33,197 nucleotides of DNA from Acidobacteriota bacterium (GTDB taxonomy: Bacteria > Acidobacteriota > Aminicenantia > UBA2199). The DNA lies in assembly GCA_025456175.1 (NCBI GenBank), contig JALOLC010000024.1, forward strand, positions 1-33,197, written 5' to 3'. Shown here piece after piece: positions 7,865-12,174 of this stretch. The position numbers and the translations under genes were made by a program. The notes beneath the pieces are model-generated. The model saw nothing but the letters and a program-made list of their open reading frames with translations, was not told where the DNA came from and did not search any database. Within the stretch, counting starts at the first letter, position 1; every line of letters begins with the position of its first letter.

Positions 7865-9199
7865 CTATCCTTCTTTAGCTGCTAATGATGACCTGGCGGT
7901 CAGGCCGGGGAAGAGGGAGACCGCGTAGAGGGGATAGTTGCAGAAATCGCCGTCACGCTTGAAATTCCTGGCCCCGGCCCGCGACAATGCCGCCGGCTTG
8001 AACTTCTCGCCGTAAACGCGCAGGCTCCTTTTCTCGCGGCTGGCGCCCGCCTTGACTTCCAGGGGCAGGATGGATTCTCCGCTGGCGATGACGAAGTCCA
8101 CTTCGGCGCGGCCCGGGCTGGTCCAGAAGTGCAGCTCCCCGTTCCCGGCCGCGAGCAATTCCTGCGCCGCATAGTTCTCCACGAAGGCGCCATTGTATTC
8201 CTGGAACAGGCGGTTGCCTTCGATGACGGTTTTTTCGCTCAAACCCAGGCGCGCCCCCAGCAAGCCCACGTCCAGCATATACAGCTTGAAGGAGCTCTCT
8301 TCGCGGTATCCGGCCAGCGGGAGTTTGGGCGTCTTCAGGCTGTGGCATTTGTGCGCCAGGCCGGCATTGACCAGCCATTGCACCGAGTCCATGTAATCCC
8401 GCGCCCGGGCATGGTCGGCAACGGCGGCGAAGCGGAATTTCTTGTTTTCCCTTCCCAATTGTGCCGGCAGCGCGCTCCAGACACGGCTGTTCTTCATTGC
8501 CTCGGCCTTGGTGGTGTGCTTGGCCAGGTCGCGGTCATAGGCGCCGAGAATCTCGGTCTGGACCAGGCGCGCCTTTCCCAGATCCCCGGTTTCGGAGTAG
8601 CGGACGACCGCTTCCGGCATGCCGCCCACAAAGTAGTAGGTCTTGAGCAGGCCGAGCAGGTCTTCATGAAAGCCGGCTTCCAGGGGGGTGAAGTCTTGCT
8701 TCTGTTCCAGCAGGCCGCGCAGGCTTGCCCGGCCTATGCCTTCCAGGAATTCGCCGAACGACATGGGCAAAAGAGCAAGAAAACTCACCTTGCCCACCGG
8801 GAAATGGGTCGCTTTCCCCAGCATGGTGCCAAGCAACGAGCCGGCAGCAACGACATGGTATTCCGGCGTCAACTCCTGGAAATATTTCAGGCTGTTCAAG
8901 GCTTCCGGGCATTCCTGGATTTCATCGAAGATGATCAGGCTGTCTTCCGCGCCAATGCGGCTTTCGGTATAAATGGAGAGTTTATCAATGATCTGTCGGG
9001 GGTCAAGGCGGCCCTGGAAAAAATCACGCAGGCGCGGGTCCATTTCGAAGTTGAGATAGACCGAATGGCGATACTCGCCGGCAGCGAACTCCTTGAGAAC
9101 ATAGGTTTTGCCTACCTGGCGCGCTCCGCTGACGATCAATGGCTTGCGGTAAGGCGATTTTTTCCATTCCAACAGCGATACATAAATATTTCGTTTCAC
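7865..9199 (-). CDS. AAA+ ATPase with C-terminal DUF4143 (PD-(D/E)XK-like) domain
   Basis: A 444-residue member of the AAA_14/DUF4143 family, whose cellular role is unknown. Walker A is GARQVGKT (about residues 25-32) and Walker B is LIIFDEIQ (about 88-95). A sensor-type AAGS follows near 117. The DUF4143 part contains EVDFVI followed by LEVKAG near residues 370-385, the layout of a restriction-nuclease-like fold. GTG at 9199 is the only start that fits, because an in-frame TAA lies just upstream. The predicted transcription start coincides with this GTG. This family is often patchily distributed and spread by transfer, and the AT-rich upstream region contrasts with the neighbours. Confidence 0.9.
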   Translation of the reverse strand: MKRNIYVSLLEWKKSPYRKPLIVSGARQVGKTYVLKEFAAGEYRHSVYLNFEMDPRLRDFFQGRLDPRQIIDKLSIYTESRIGAEDSLIIFDEIQECPEALNSLKYFQELTPEYHVVAAGSLLGTMLGKATHFPVGKVSFLALLPMSFGEFLEGIGRASLRGLLEQKQDFTPLEAGFHEDLLGLLKTYYFVGGMPEAVVRYSETGDLGKARLVQTEILGAYDRDLAKHTTKAEAMKNSRVWSALPAQLGRENKKFRFAAVADHARARDYMDSVQWLVNAGLAHKCHSLKTPKLPLAGYREESSFKLYMLDVGLLGARLGLSEKTVIEGNRLFQEYNGAFVENYAAQELLAAGNGELHFWTSPGRAEVDFVIASGESILPLEVKAGASREKRSLRVYGEKFKPAALSRAGARNFKRDGDFCNYPLYAVSLFPGLTARSSLAAKEG

Positions 9200-9205
9200 A
9201 TAGCC

Positions 9206-9234
9206 TTAATATCAATAAACGTGAAAAATGTCAA
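9206..9234 (-). promoter_or_regulatory. Predicted promoter of the AAA/DUF4143 gene with operator-like repeat in the spacer
   Basis: On the minus strand, TTGACA (9229-9234) and TATTAA (9206-9211) are separated by 17 bp. The first copy of the 12-bp repeat TCAATAAACGTG (plus-strand reading, 9212-9223) fills most of the spacer, a classic site for a repressor. The predicted start falls at about 9199, on the GTG itself. Confidence 0.6.
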
Positions 9235-9291
9235 TTATTAACTTCATTTTTCGTGCAATCATTGATTCATTATGTTCAATAAACGTGTAAA
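9212..9291. repeat. Pair of direct repeats TCAATAAACGTG upstream of the AAA/DUF4143 gene
   Basis: TCAATAAACGTG occurs exactly at 9212-9223 and 9276-9287. Both copies continue with a W then AAA, giving 15 of 16 matching bases. The 64-bp spacing is close to six helical turns, which would put both copies on one DNA face. Between them an inverted pair, GAAAAATG (9223-9230) and CATTTTTC (9245-9252), could form a hairpin. Together they look like a regulatory or recognition region. Confidence 0.55.
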
Positions 9292-9390: not shown

Positions 9391-9418
9391 CGCGTTACGC
9401 GTCACGCGTCACGCGTCA
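9391..9418. repeat. Heptamer tandem repeat (CGCGTCA type), four copies
   Basis: Four back-to-back 7-bp units: CGCGTTA once, then CGCGTCA three times, ending at 9418. Each junction creates the palindrome ACGCGT. The array lies just after the 3' end of the DUF523-DUF1722 gene, in a 231-bp gap that otherwise holds the AT-rich control region of the AAA gene. Confidence 0.7.
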
Positions 9419-9430
9419 CGATAGCGTCTT

Positions 9431-10381
9431 TTAAGCATGATTTCTGAGCTTGAGCTCCAGCGGGTGCGGGTCGAGATAATACTGGTCTTTCAGATACGGC
9501 TCCCGGAACTTGTCGATATAATGTTTTAGCAGGGTCAGCGGCACGATCAGCGGCACCAGGCTCTGGCGGTATTCCTCGATGACCCGCAGCAATTCCCTCT
9601 TTTCGAAGTCATCGAGCTGCTTCTTGAAATAGCCGAGCATGTGCTGCAGCACGTTGACGTTCTTGCGCACCGTGGCTTTCTGCTTCAGGGCGGTCAGAAA
9701 AAGCTTTTCATATTCGGGCACGATCTCCGTCAGCGGGCGGGTGCCGGCGCCGGCCACCAGTTTGCCGAGCTGGCGGGCCATCTCCGGGCTGTGAGCCATC
9801 AGCAGCAGCTTGTGCCGGCGCTGGAATTCGACCAGCCGCCCGGCCGCGGCGCCACTGGAGAGCATTTCCCGCCAGCGGCGGTAGACGAAGATGCGCACGA
9901 TGAAGTTCTCGCGCAGGTCAATGTCCTGCAGGCGGCCTTCCTCCTCCACCGGCAGCAGCGGCAGCCGCGCCATGAGCGCCCGGGCAAAGACGCCCACCCC
10001 CTTCTTCTCGGCCATGCCCTTGTCGTTGTAGACCTTGACCCGCTCCATGCCGCTCGACGGCGACTGGCTCTTGAAGATGAAGCCGCACATCTCCTCCTTC
10101 TCCAGCTGCGGCAGCTTCTTCTCGATCCAGCGCTCCATCTGCGGCGTGGCGTCGACCCCGGTCTGGCGGGTGACCAGCCTGGGCCGCTCCGGGTCGCCGA
10201 CCAGGCGGAAGGCCTCGCGCGGCACCGGAAATCCCGACTCCACCTCGGGGCACACCGGGACGTATTCCACGAACTGGCCCAAGGTGTTCACCAGGAATGG
10301 ATCGAACTTGTGGCCGCCGTCGTAACGCACCTTGTTGCCCAGCAGGCAGGAGCTGATGCCCAGCCTGATCTTCTTCTCCAT
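9431..10381 (-). CDS. DUF523-DUF1722 (YbgA-like) two-domain protein
   Basis: A 316-residue protein. Residues about 1-150 are DUF523, recognised from GISSCLLGNKVRYDGGHK, the CPEVESG stretch and the FKSQSPSSG motif with conserved Cys and Ser. Residues about 180-300 are DUF1722/YbgA, with RRHKLLLMAHSP and YKKQL-like helical segments. The combined architecture is widespread and its biochemical role is not settled. The ATG at 10381 has GGAGGAG seven bases before it; in-frame upstream codons have no ribosome site. It follows the FakA-FakB fusion by 17 bases and is probably the last gene of the polA transcript. Confidence 0.9.
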   Translation of the reverse strand: MEKKIRLGISSCLLGNKVRYDGGHKFDPFLVNTLGQFVEYVPVCPEVESGFPVPREAFRLVGDPERPRLVTRQTGVDATPQMERWIEKKLPQLEKEEMCGFIFKSQSPSSGMERVKVYNDKGMAEKKGVGVFARALMARLPLLPVEEEGRLQDIDLRENFIVRIFVYRRWREMLSSGAAAGRLVEFQRRHKLLLMAHSPEMARQLGKLVAGAGTRPLTEIVPEYEKLFLTALKQKATVRKNVNVLQHMLGYFKKQLDDFEKRELLRVIEEYRQSLVPLIVPLTLLKHYIDKFREPYLKDQYYLDPHPLELKLRNHA

Positions 10382-10398
10382 GACTCCTCCTTGCGGAA

Positions 10399-12174
10399 TC
10401 ACTCCCCTGCCTCCGCGTCGGGCAAGGCGAACAGGCAGAAGGTTCCCGGTCCGGCGTGGGCGCCGAGCACGGCCGCGCCGACGGTTTGGTAGAGGGACGA
10501 TACCTTCAGCGGCGACTTGGCCAGCTCGTCCGCGAGCCGCAGGGCCGCCTGCGGGTTATCGGTATAGACGACGGCCACGGAATGGGAGCGGCGCAAATCC
10601 AGCCGCTTCAGAAAGCGGCGTACCACCTTTTTCTCCTTGTGGCGCGAGCTGAGCAGGGCCCCTTTCCTGACCAACCTGCCATCGACGAAGGCGACCAGGG
10701 GCCGAATGCCGAGAAGGCGGGTGACGGCGCCGGCCAGCGGCGGCAGGCGGCCGCCGCGCACCGCGTATTCCAGCGATTCGACATAGCCCAGAGATACCAC
10801 GTGGGCGCGGCGGCGTTCGATCGCACCCGCGGCCTGCTCCGGGTCCAGCCCCTGCTGCAGCAGCTGCAGGGCGCCGCAGAAGAGCAGGCCGCTGCCGGCC
10901 GAGACGTTGAGCGTATCGATGATGCGGATGCGGGCCTGGTCCGCGGCGCTCAGGAGGCGCAGCGCAGCCAGCGCGCCCTGGAACGAACCGCTCAGGCGCG
11001 ACGACAGGCTGAAAAAAAGCACCTGCCGCTTGCGCGCCAGGGCCGCCTCGAAGGCGGTCTTGAAATCACGCGGCGCCGGTTGCGAGGTCTTGACCACCAG
11101 GTCCTTTTCGGCCCGCATGCGGCGGTACAGCTCCTCCTTGGCGATCTCGATCCGGTCGCGGGCATAGCGGTCGTTCAAGAGGATCTGCAGGGGCACGATC
11201 CCGACGTCCGACGACCTCTCCGTCGCTTCCGGGATGTCGACGGCGGAGTCGATGAGCAGGGCGACGTCGAGCGGCGAAGCCGATCCCGGCGCCGGGCGCA
11301 GCGAGTCGACCTTGCGCGACTGGATCTCGCCGTGGCGGGCGATCTCCGCCTCGGCGCCGTCCGGGTCGTCGGTGTGCAGGTGCAGGTGAAACAGGCCGGC
11401 ATCGCCGGCGATGAGCAGCGAGTCGCCCCGTCCCTTGAGCAGGTCCTTGAAGAATTCGCGGTCGCGGCGGGGGCGCACCACCCACTCGGCGCAGTAGGTC
11501 AGCGACGACGGCTCGACAACCTGGGGTGCCTGGTCGAAAGCGGCGCTGCCGGCGTCGCCGCCGCGGCCGTTGACCGCGGCGGCCATGCCCTTGAAGAAGA
11601 GGAAGAATCCCAGCCCGCCGGCGTCGACCACCCGCGCCTTCTTCATCTGCGGCAGCATGTCGCGGGTCTTCTCCAGGATCTCCTTGGCCTTGATGATCGC
11701 CTTTTCGAAGATGACCTGGTAGCGTTCCCCGCTCAGGGCCAGGCGCTTGAACTCATCGGCGGTGTGGCGCAGCACGGTCAGGATCGTCCCCTCGCGGGGG
11801 TCGGCGACCGCGGCGTAGGTCTCGCGCACGGCCTTCTCCATGGCCAGGCTGAAGTCGGCCGGCCCGATCGTCGCCCGGCCCTGCAGCGCCTGGGCGAAGG
11901 CGAAAAAGAACTGCGAGAAAATGACGCCGGAATTGCCCTTGGCCGAGAGCAGCATGGTCTGGGCCAGGCGGGCCGCCAGGTCGTCCAGGCGCGTCTCGCC
12001 ATGGGCGTCGATGCCGTCGTAGACCGGCTTCAGGGTATGGACCAGGTTGTCGCCGGTATCCCCGTCGGCGACCGGGAAGACATTGATGCGGTTCAGGAGC
12101 TCCCGGTCCTGGAACAGGTGCTCCATGCCCCGCTTGACAATCTCCCTGAACTTGGCGGCGTCGATCTCCTTCAC
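10399..12174 (-). CDS. Fused fatty acid kinase: DhaL (FakA-type) plus DegV (FakB-type) domains
   Basis: A 591-residue fusion. The DhaL/DAK2 kinase domain covers about residues 1-200, with NVFPVADGDTGDN (31-43) for Mg-ATP and AKGNSGVIFSQ. A FakA middle domain (about 228-285) contains HLHLHTDDP. The DegV domain (about 302-588) has the fatty-acid-binding marks KTSQPAP, SSRLSGSFQGA, VRGGRL and GAHAGPGTF. In Firmicutes, separate FakA and FakB phosphorylate exogenous fatty acids to acyl-phosphate. Here the binding protein appears joined in cis, replacing the usual C-terminal FakA domain. It starts at GTG 12174 behind GGAGGAG, ten bases after polA. The assignment of activity is family inference. Confidence 0.88.
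   Translation of the reverse strand: MKEIDAAKFREIVKRGMEHLFQDRELLNRINVFPVADGDTGDNLVHTLKPVYDGIDAHGETRLDDLAARLAQTMLLSAKGNSGVIFSQFFFAFAQALQGRATIGPADFSLAMEKAVRETYAAVADPREGTILTVLRHTADEFKRLALSGERYQVIFEKAIIKAKEILEKTRDMLPQMKKARVVDAGGLGFFLFFKGMAAAVNGRGGDAGSAAFDQAPQVVEPSSLTYCAEWVVRPRRDREFFKDLLKGRGDSLLIAGDAGLFHLHLHTDDPDGAEAEIARHGEIQSRKVDSLRPAPGSASPLDVALLIDSAVDIPEATERSSDVGIVPLQILLNDRYARDRIEIAKEELYRRMRAEKDLVVKTSQPAPRDFKTAFEAALARKRQVLFFSLSSRLSGSFQGALAALRLLSAADQARIRIIDTLNVSAGSGLLFCGALQLLQQGLDPEQAAGAIERRRAHVVSLGYVESLEYAVRGGRLPPLAGAVTRLLGIRPLVAFVDGRLVRKGALLSSRHKEKKVVRRFLKRLDLRRSHSVAVVYTDNPQAALRLADELAKSPLKVSSLYQTVGAAVLGAHAGPGTFCLFALPDAEAGE

Follow-up and report, generated by a model that had tools for sequence, protein, structure and literature searches.

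We studied a short repeat array in front of an AAA/DUF4143 gene in a 33,197-nucleotide stretch of DNA from an Acidobacteriota bacterium (assembly GCA_025456175.1, contig JALOLC010000024.1), referred to below as the window. The gene (7865..9199, minus strand) runs leftward from a GTG start at 9199 and encodes a 444-amino-acid protein of the AAA_14 + DUF4143 type. Pfam and PADLOC matches, a structure model with fold searches and invariant residues suggest a STAND-like NTPase, a winged-helix region and a PD-(D/E)XK-type nuclease domain. We found that the PADLOC PDC-S01 profile PDLC04786 covers residues 1-430 (E 4.5e-159), and by this match the gene is a candidate for phage defence; four DUF4143 proteins of other types likewise match PDC-S01. 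No family in NCBIfam scored above its cut-off for the window protein. We take COG1373 to be the label for PDC-S01-type proteins. Papers are cited here by PubMed Central number. PDC-S01, a single-gene candidate in PADLOC, is described with the same AAA_14 + DUF4143 composition, an ATPase plus PD-(D/E)XK architecture, and as ranking fourth in frequency among prokaryotic defences (PMC12988326); in rumen genomes it is reported to be the individual locus found most often (PMC13356809).

The structure model, built from 46 aligned sequences, had a mean predicted local distance difference test score of 90. It matched 2qen (Z 16.3, root-mean-square deviation 4.5 over 268 residues), RPP1 (Z 14.9 over 254) and CED-4 (Z 14.6 over 262), and these ranges begin at residue 1 and end at 319-338. 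The first ~320 residues resemble two archaeal ATPases and NB-ARC proteins, with other AAA+ proteins next at Z 10-11, and the Foldseek list includes ORC, Cdc6/Orc1-DNA chains and RuvB, while phmmer against the PDB with the window protein gave no match. We read these ~320 residues, domain borders included, as a predicted STAND-class fold of P-loop, helical and winged-helix parts. Weak helix-turn-helix (HTH) matches below the Pfam cut-offs (HTH_20, HTH_11, GntR, MarR and others) were found in the winged-helix region of three of four other, shorter DUF4143 proteins, and no Pfam HTH match in that of the fourth. In the C-terminal part, D368, E381 and K383, presumably the PD-(D/E)XK active site, are invariant in 46/46 aligned sequences.

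A 32-bp repeat array in the window

The first-pass annotation of this DNA had reported a 12-mer occurring twice, 64 bp apart. A sequence search located both copies of TCAATAAACGTG, at 9212-9223 and 9276-9287 on the plus strand, with starts 64 bp apart; on the gene strand the element reads CACGTTTATTGA. Exactly midway between them we found a third, degraded copy, CACGAAAAATGA (9244..9255, minus strand), which matches at 8 of 12 positions (chance ~0.01 for one given position) and lies 32 bp from either intact copy. Given this midway copy, the period of the array is 32 bp, and the two-copy layout, although real in both its copies, is actually one of three, beginning at -88, -56 and -24 relative to the GTG. 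Annotated on the minus strand, copy 1 (9212..9223) spans -24 to -13, the degraded unit is copy 2, and copy 3 (9276..9287) spans -88 to -77. In the nearest relative found, L009 (an Acidobacteria metagenome-assembled genome whose protein is 92% identical), each of the three positions holds a copy, with matches of 10, 11 and 12 of 12, and the copy at the position degraded in the window matches 11/12.

We searched the window genome (2,186,344 bases in 188 contigs, 73.5% complete) and found TCAATAAACGTG twice, both times at this locus, with no further copies at 0 or 1 mismatch, so that the 12-mer is not scattered at random. The three-copy layout, allowing up to 3 mismatches, was also found once. 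The idea that the 12-mer might recur near other DUF4143 genes of this genome did not hold, as it is absent from all five, three of which carry other repeats. When the whole window was scanned with 2 mismatches allowed, 11/100 shuffles reached 2 matches, and the match count alone is therefore unremarkable. Within the 160 bp upstream of the gene, any repeated 12-mer arose in 11/3000 dinucleotide shuffles, and the self-repeat score of the window alone gave p = 0.001 (2000 dinucleotide shuffles). Chance does not account for the local repeat.

Read on the gene strand, the predicted promoter consists of TTGACA (-35; 9229..9234, minus strand), 17 bp, TATTAA (-10; 9206..9211, minus strand), 6 nt and the GTG, with an in-frame TAA at 9206-9208 just upstream; the two hexamers, the start codon and the TAA are those first annotated. 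Copy 1 lies between -35 and -10 and overlaps the gene's own predicted promoter, where it covers 12 of the 17 spacer bases, and does not fill the spacer as had been stated. A -10 scan of the window favoured GATATT (gap 8) over TATTAA (gap 6), the latter being in line with a gap-6 peak in related genes described below; either way, the predicted 5′ end falls near the start codon.

Recurrence of the array among PDC-S01 genes

The 80 best relatives were chosen by protein alone and the window was added (81), and the 160 bp upstream of each gene was tested for self-repeats against dinucleotide shuffles with a p floor of 0.01. Upstream self-repeats were found in 61/81 at the floor and 70/81 at p≤0.05. 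The corresponding numbers were 6/79 and 8/79 for the 160 bp downstream of the gene, and 4/142 and 11/142 for control upstreams of other, mechanically called open reading frames at the same loci. None of the 142 controls combined p≤0.02 with a best offset of 32 or 33, and any best offset of 32, 33 or 64-66 occurred in 12/142, about the chance level. Ten further copies were taken from 79 matched plasmid and phage records. Nine of them, including those of Fusobacterium animalis, Glaesserella parasuis, Segatella copri, Collinsella aerofaciens, Vibrio coralliilyticus and Acinetobacter towneri, carried repeats at 32, 33 or 66 bp (p≤0.02), and the copy of Fusobacterium vincentii had no upstream repeat in the 160-bp test.

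The final run comprised 93 same-type genes (91 found by protein and two paralogues by the array itself) in ten phylum groups, with phylum labels assigned by hand and 300 shuffles. We found that 68/93 reached p≤0.01, all at an offset of 32, 33, 64, 65 or 66, and that 81/93 reached p≤0.05 with an offset of 31-34 or 64-67; one gene, L053 (by subtraction), reached p≤0.05 at another offset. Pooled autocorrelation over 91 upstreams was 0.41 at lag 32 compared with 0.305 in shuffles (z score 27), and the next peaks were at lags 33 (z 18.5), 64 (z 14) and 66 (z 9). A distance of 32-33 bp is about three turns of B-DNA, and repeats with this spacing sit on one DNA face. These upstreams are AT-rich (~71% A+T), which, with the shuffles that equalled the window's count at 2 mismatches, might suggest that the repeats are accidents of AT-rich promoters. 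We regard this as scarcely credible in view of the dinucleotide-preserving shuffles and same-locus controls, the 32/33 period in ten phylum groups and the p value of the window alone.

The enriched upstream words include AAAAGTGT, AAAATGTG, AAAACGTG and CACGTTTT. Many units in Chlamydiota and Gammaproteobacteria are 24-bp near-dyads, such as CACGTTTTTCCAACGAAAAACGTG; those of Bacillota are one-sided (CAAAAGTGTGAT), and so are the units of the window and L009. An unseeded, blind motif search was drawn to A/T tracts. A seeded motif model, by which 78/91 loci had at least 2 sites, was not relied on, as its two overlapping registers (spacing 2 common) inflate counts.

We found that -10-like hexamers peak 6 nt ahead of the start codon (z 8.9) in 26 genes on the window's side of the protein tree, a set chosen by hand and grouped after the upstreams had been viewed. 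A Shine-Dalgarno-like stretch occurred in 0/26 of these genes, in 25/27 of a Bacillota group also chosen by hand, and in 12/40 of the remaining genes. L019, L027 and L029, whose tree position next to the 26 is unresolved, were at first left out, and with them the gap-6 peak had a z of 9.2 (29 genes). Outside the Bacillota group the peak persisted (all 66 genes, z 5.7), and over all 93 it was lost (z 1.8). These upstream sequences support a leaderless-type promoter that recurs on the window's side of the tree and is not family-wide, and the annotated transcript start on the GTG is a plausible prediction to that extent. The nearest repeated copy overlaps -36..-7 in 15/26 of the window-side genes. 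For this comparison offsets 60-68 were scored for the window only, and some of the repeats lacked significance in the 93-gene run.

The same geometry bears on a role of the repeats in RNA, as leader hairpins or a small RNA, for which the many near-dyad units would be suitable. With the -10 element 6 nt from the start codon on the window's side, the array would not be transcribed from that promoter, and neither the window form nor the Bacillota form, both direct repeats, shows a clear dyad. We consider an RNA role very unlikely.

Linkage of the array to its gene

We also searched whole genomes with patterns derived from the arrays, which match the known arrays by construction, so that the informative part is their near-absence elsewhere. 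A dyad pattern was searched in ten whole genomes or records, and the 14 places with at most 1 mismatch were all arrays before DUF4143 genes: 12 were known and 2 stood before a new Collinsella paralogue, L168, in whose record an earlier search had counted three places. A 3-mismatch pair 32 bp apart in genome G154 pointed to a further paralogue, L169. With a paired Bacillota-type motif (at most 3 mismatches, 25 genomes), 49 of the 50 matches lay before the known gene, and the reversed control gave 0 matches in the same genomes. Of the paired-motif matches, 30 are loci with a gene frame found, and the others lie 32-64 bp from those.

A viral-contig scan with a paired motif yielded 10 contigs, two of them with an adjacent DUF4143 frame (L171 and L179). 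The genes on these two (L171, 7039-8530; L179, 1329-2800) are closely similar and were located by the DNA motif alone, and four GAAAAATGTGA units in 32-bp steps precede the one on L171. Contig L170 stops 157 bp beyond the motif, too short to judge. The other 7 have no DUF4143 frame and look unrelated; four share one sequence family and two are near-identical.

Upstream similarity was found to increase with protein identity (Mantel rho 0.383, permutation maximum 0.138), and strongly so within phyla (rho 0.76 against a permutation maximum of 0.446). L016 and L169, paralogues in one genome, have different arrays, and L169 groups with Chlamydiota proteins in the tree and has their array type. Judged from these comparisons, the repeat type tends to follow the protein clade. 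Within ~2 kb per side at most, the largest neighbour family was present in 5/89 loci, four of them one near-identical group. As a separate observation, L038, L046, L050 and L051 have near-identical genes and upstreams (96-98% protein identity) in records labelled Gastranaerophilales and Clostridium, a likeness that we read as misbinning or recent transfer.

These results bear on whether the site belongs to a separate host regulator, for example a CRP/FNR-like protein or another winged-helix repressor, and not to the DUF4143 protein. Such a regulator would fit the TGTGA-like words, similar to CRP half-sites, that were found in 47/91 upstreams compared with 21.4 in shuffles, and the resemblance of some Bacteroidota copies to TGTGA-TCACA dyads. 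However, the window genome has the site only at the PDC-S01 gene, the paired motifs of the 25 other genomes lie with the one exception at that gene, paralogues within one genome can differ in array, and no neighbour is widely shared. On balance, a host regulator is unlikely.

Other DUF4143 genes came from three sources: the window's phylum, in which 84 of 149 genomes had DUF4143 and the top of this list supplied 29 new loci; 40 more stretches on the list; and the six of the window genome. Of the 75 loci taken, 72 were usable, L089 (no start) and two with <120 bp upstream being left out; L006, among the 72, is the window's own gene and was excluded from the inverted-repeat test (71). Direct repeats were found in 15/72 at p≤0.01 and 20/72 at p≤0.05. 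Ten of these 20 (L104, L105, L109, L136, L143, L148, L151, L157, L160 and L162) had a period of 22-23 bp or double, with words such as AACTTTCAATCAGCCG. Within the last 100 bp upstream, 44/71 had a long inverted repeat at p≤0.05 and 23/71 at the floor, compared with 39/91 and 21/91 for window-type genes and 16/142 and 5/142 for controls. In L095, L140, L144, L146, L152 and others it spans 33-51 bp and ends 0-37 bp before the start codon. We read the 23-bp-array and inverted-repeat types as separate branches of the family. In the window genome, four of the six DUF4143 genes (the window's, L008, L004 and L007) had a direct or inverted repeat at p<0.05 and L003 and L005 had neither, with two uncorrected tests for each of the five other genes. 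In the window itself, a tandem CGCGTTACGCGTCACGCGTCACG-type repeat at 9391-9420 lies between the array and the end of the upstream same-strand gene (9431-10402, minus strand), and it looks unrelated to the array.

The repeats might instead form an iteron-like site on which the ATPase/nuclease assembles for DNA work in cis, such as an origin-like function, mobilisation or self-marking by the nuclease. In-phase direct repeats beside an AAA+ gene, Cdc6/Orc1 and RuvB among the fold matches, the invariant PD-(D/E)XK residues, and the co-occurrence of gene and array across phyla, as after transfer, are consistent with this. The rarity of repeats downstream of the gene, the overlap of the proximal unit with the promoter region in the 15 window-side genes and the promoter inverted repeats of other DUF4143 genes argue against it and make such work in cis improbable.

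A candidate self-bound operator

The sequences strongly support an operator-like site dedicated to the PDC-S01 gene. Our computation gave the array, its period, its overlap with the promoter in part of the set, its linkage to the gene, its clade-dependent sequence and the leaderless-type geometry on the window's side. We propose, with a probability of about 0.6, that the repeats serve the downstream PDC-S01/DUF4143 gene as its dedicated operator array, and that the protein which it encodes most likely binds there and represses the gene. The first-pass annotation had suggested either an autoregulated operator or a site recognised by the ATPase/nuclease-fold protein itself. A gene-dedicated site stands, with the array before 81/93 genes and a motif that is not scattered, and autoregulation is its probable function. 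Self-recognition is the best inference because the repeat type tends to follow the protein, no neighbour is widely shared and a winged-helix region is predicted in the model. A CRP/FNR site, RNA hairpins and DNA work in cis are each less likely than a self-bound operator.

Under the proposed mechanism, the PDC-S01 protein would bind its own array through the nucleotide-binding/winged-helix region, with several protomers probably side by side on direct repeats that, three helical turns apart, present one DNA face. The proximal unit lies on or near the core promoter, where bound protein would block or tune its own promoter and so repress its own, often leaderless, transcript. Repression would limit the amount of a STAND-type nuclease that could be harmful, until some trigger lifts the repression. 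Self-binding, cooperativity, repression and release on infection are steps that we infer.

Several results weigh against this proposal. No repeat was detected at p≤0.05 in 11/93 genes (L014, L018, L029, L052, L056, L066, L072, L077, L085, L088 and L124). In the promoter comparison, 11/26 repeated copies, as detected, stop short of -36: the ends of five fall between -37 and -41 and those of another five between -50 and -67, and the eleventh, L009, is an N-padding artefact (its offset-30 result). At up to 3 mismatches, the dyad pattern gave 135 matches in the ten genomes against 147 for its reversed control, so only the places with at most 1 mismatch carry weight and weaker matches are noise as a class; three of the ten genomes or records had no place with at most 1 mismatch. 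One two-unit array follows the L065 gene at a distance of about 40 bp (L184, about 1501), and the short end of the contig beyond it has no DUF4143 frame. Between phyla, co-variation was modest, its rho of 0.218 just exceeding the 0.203 maximum of within-phylum permutations, and the partial correlation of the winged-helix region, 0.168, is the highest of four regions yet low and carries no significance figure. Gene and flank simply travel together on transfer. Finally, no Pfam HTH family matches the winged-helix stretch of the window protein, and the winged helices of NB-ARC proteins often serve as a switch rather than in DNA binding.

A bolder and doubtful, though conceivable, version of the self-bound operator is that each PDC-S01 protein assembles as an inactive STAND oligomer on its own array, which would be both brake and storage. 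Once an infection signal freed the protein, expression and nuclease activity would begin at the same time; the array would belong to the immune sensor, and different branches would use 32-bp arrays, 23-bp arrays or one long dyad.

Operator arrays as such are familiar. Among tested systems RptR comes nearest: it represses a phage-defence island via three direct repeats, two overlapping the -10 box, and its gene lies behind the promoter that it binds and represses (PMC12255303). Both cases have direct repeats in a defence promoter; RptR, however, is a dedicated repressor whose repeats, 9 bp long, are built around TAGCTA (PMC12255303), whereas here the spacing is 32-33 bp and the presumed binder is the NTPase-nuclease itself. 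The mycobacterial ATPase regulator IniR, whose AAA+ domain has been likened to SSO1545, the protein of our second Foldseek match, binds a promoter and induces iniBAC; unlike the PDC-S01 protein as proposed here, it regulates another operon and has a separate C-terminal DNA-binding domain, and no nuclease domain is described for it (PMC5760070). A nucleotide-binding plus winged-helix core is shared with archaeal Cdc6/Orc1, whose DNA-bound structures are among the fold matches, and with Rx1, whose NB-ARC domain bends and melts DNA (PMC4599002). The predicted C-terminal nuclease domain of the window protein is an addition to that core. Plasmid iterons are helical-phase direct repeats beside the gene of their own binder and are often autoregulatory. 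The array resembles them in its in-phase direct repeats beside the gene of the presumed binder, but nothing here indicates a replicon or origin function, although no test was aimed at either.

Among the matches listed in open-licence PubMed Central (titles and abstract starts; bioRxiv not included), we found no description of repeats upstream of DUF4143/PDC-S01 genes, and among the matches listed there, no mechanism for PDC-S01. In the main text of PMC12988326, the word 'promoter' occurs 0 times and 'regulat' leads to nothing on repeats or autoregulation of PDC-S01 genes. A strict, clade-matched array, found in ten phylum groups within the promoter of an abundant one-gene defence candidate, appears from these listed matches to be new.

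PDC-S01 is among the most abundant suspected prokaryotic immune genes (PMC12988326). A dedicated, clade-matched operator array would offer a ready DNA ligand for binding tests and a marker for finding PDC-S01 members by DNA alone. It would also offer a possible explanation should such a gene prove silent when screened in the laboratory, and it would provide a testable model of how a one-gene nuclease resembling nucleotide-binding leucine-rich repeat (NLR) proteins may be restrained.
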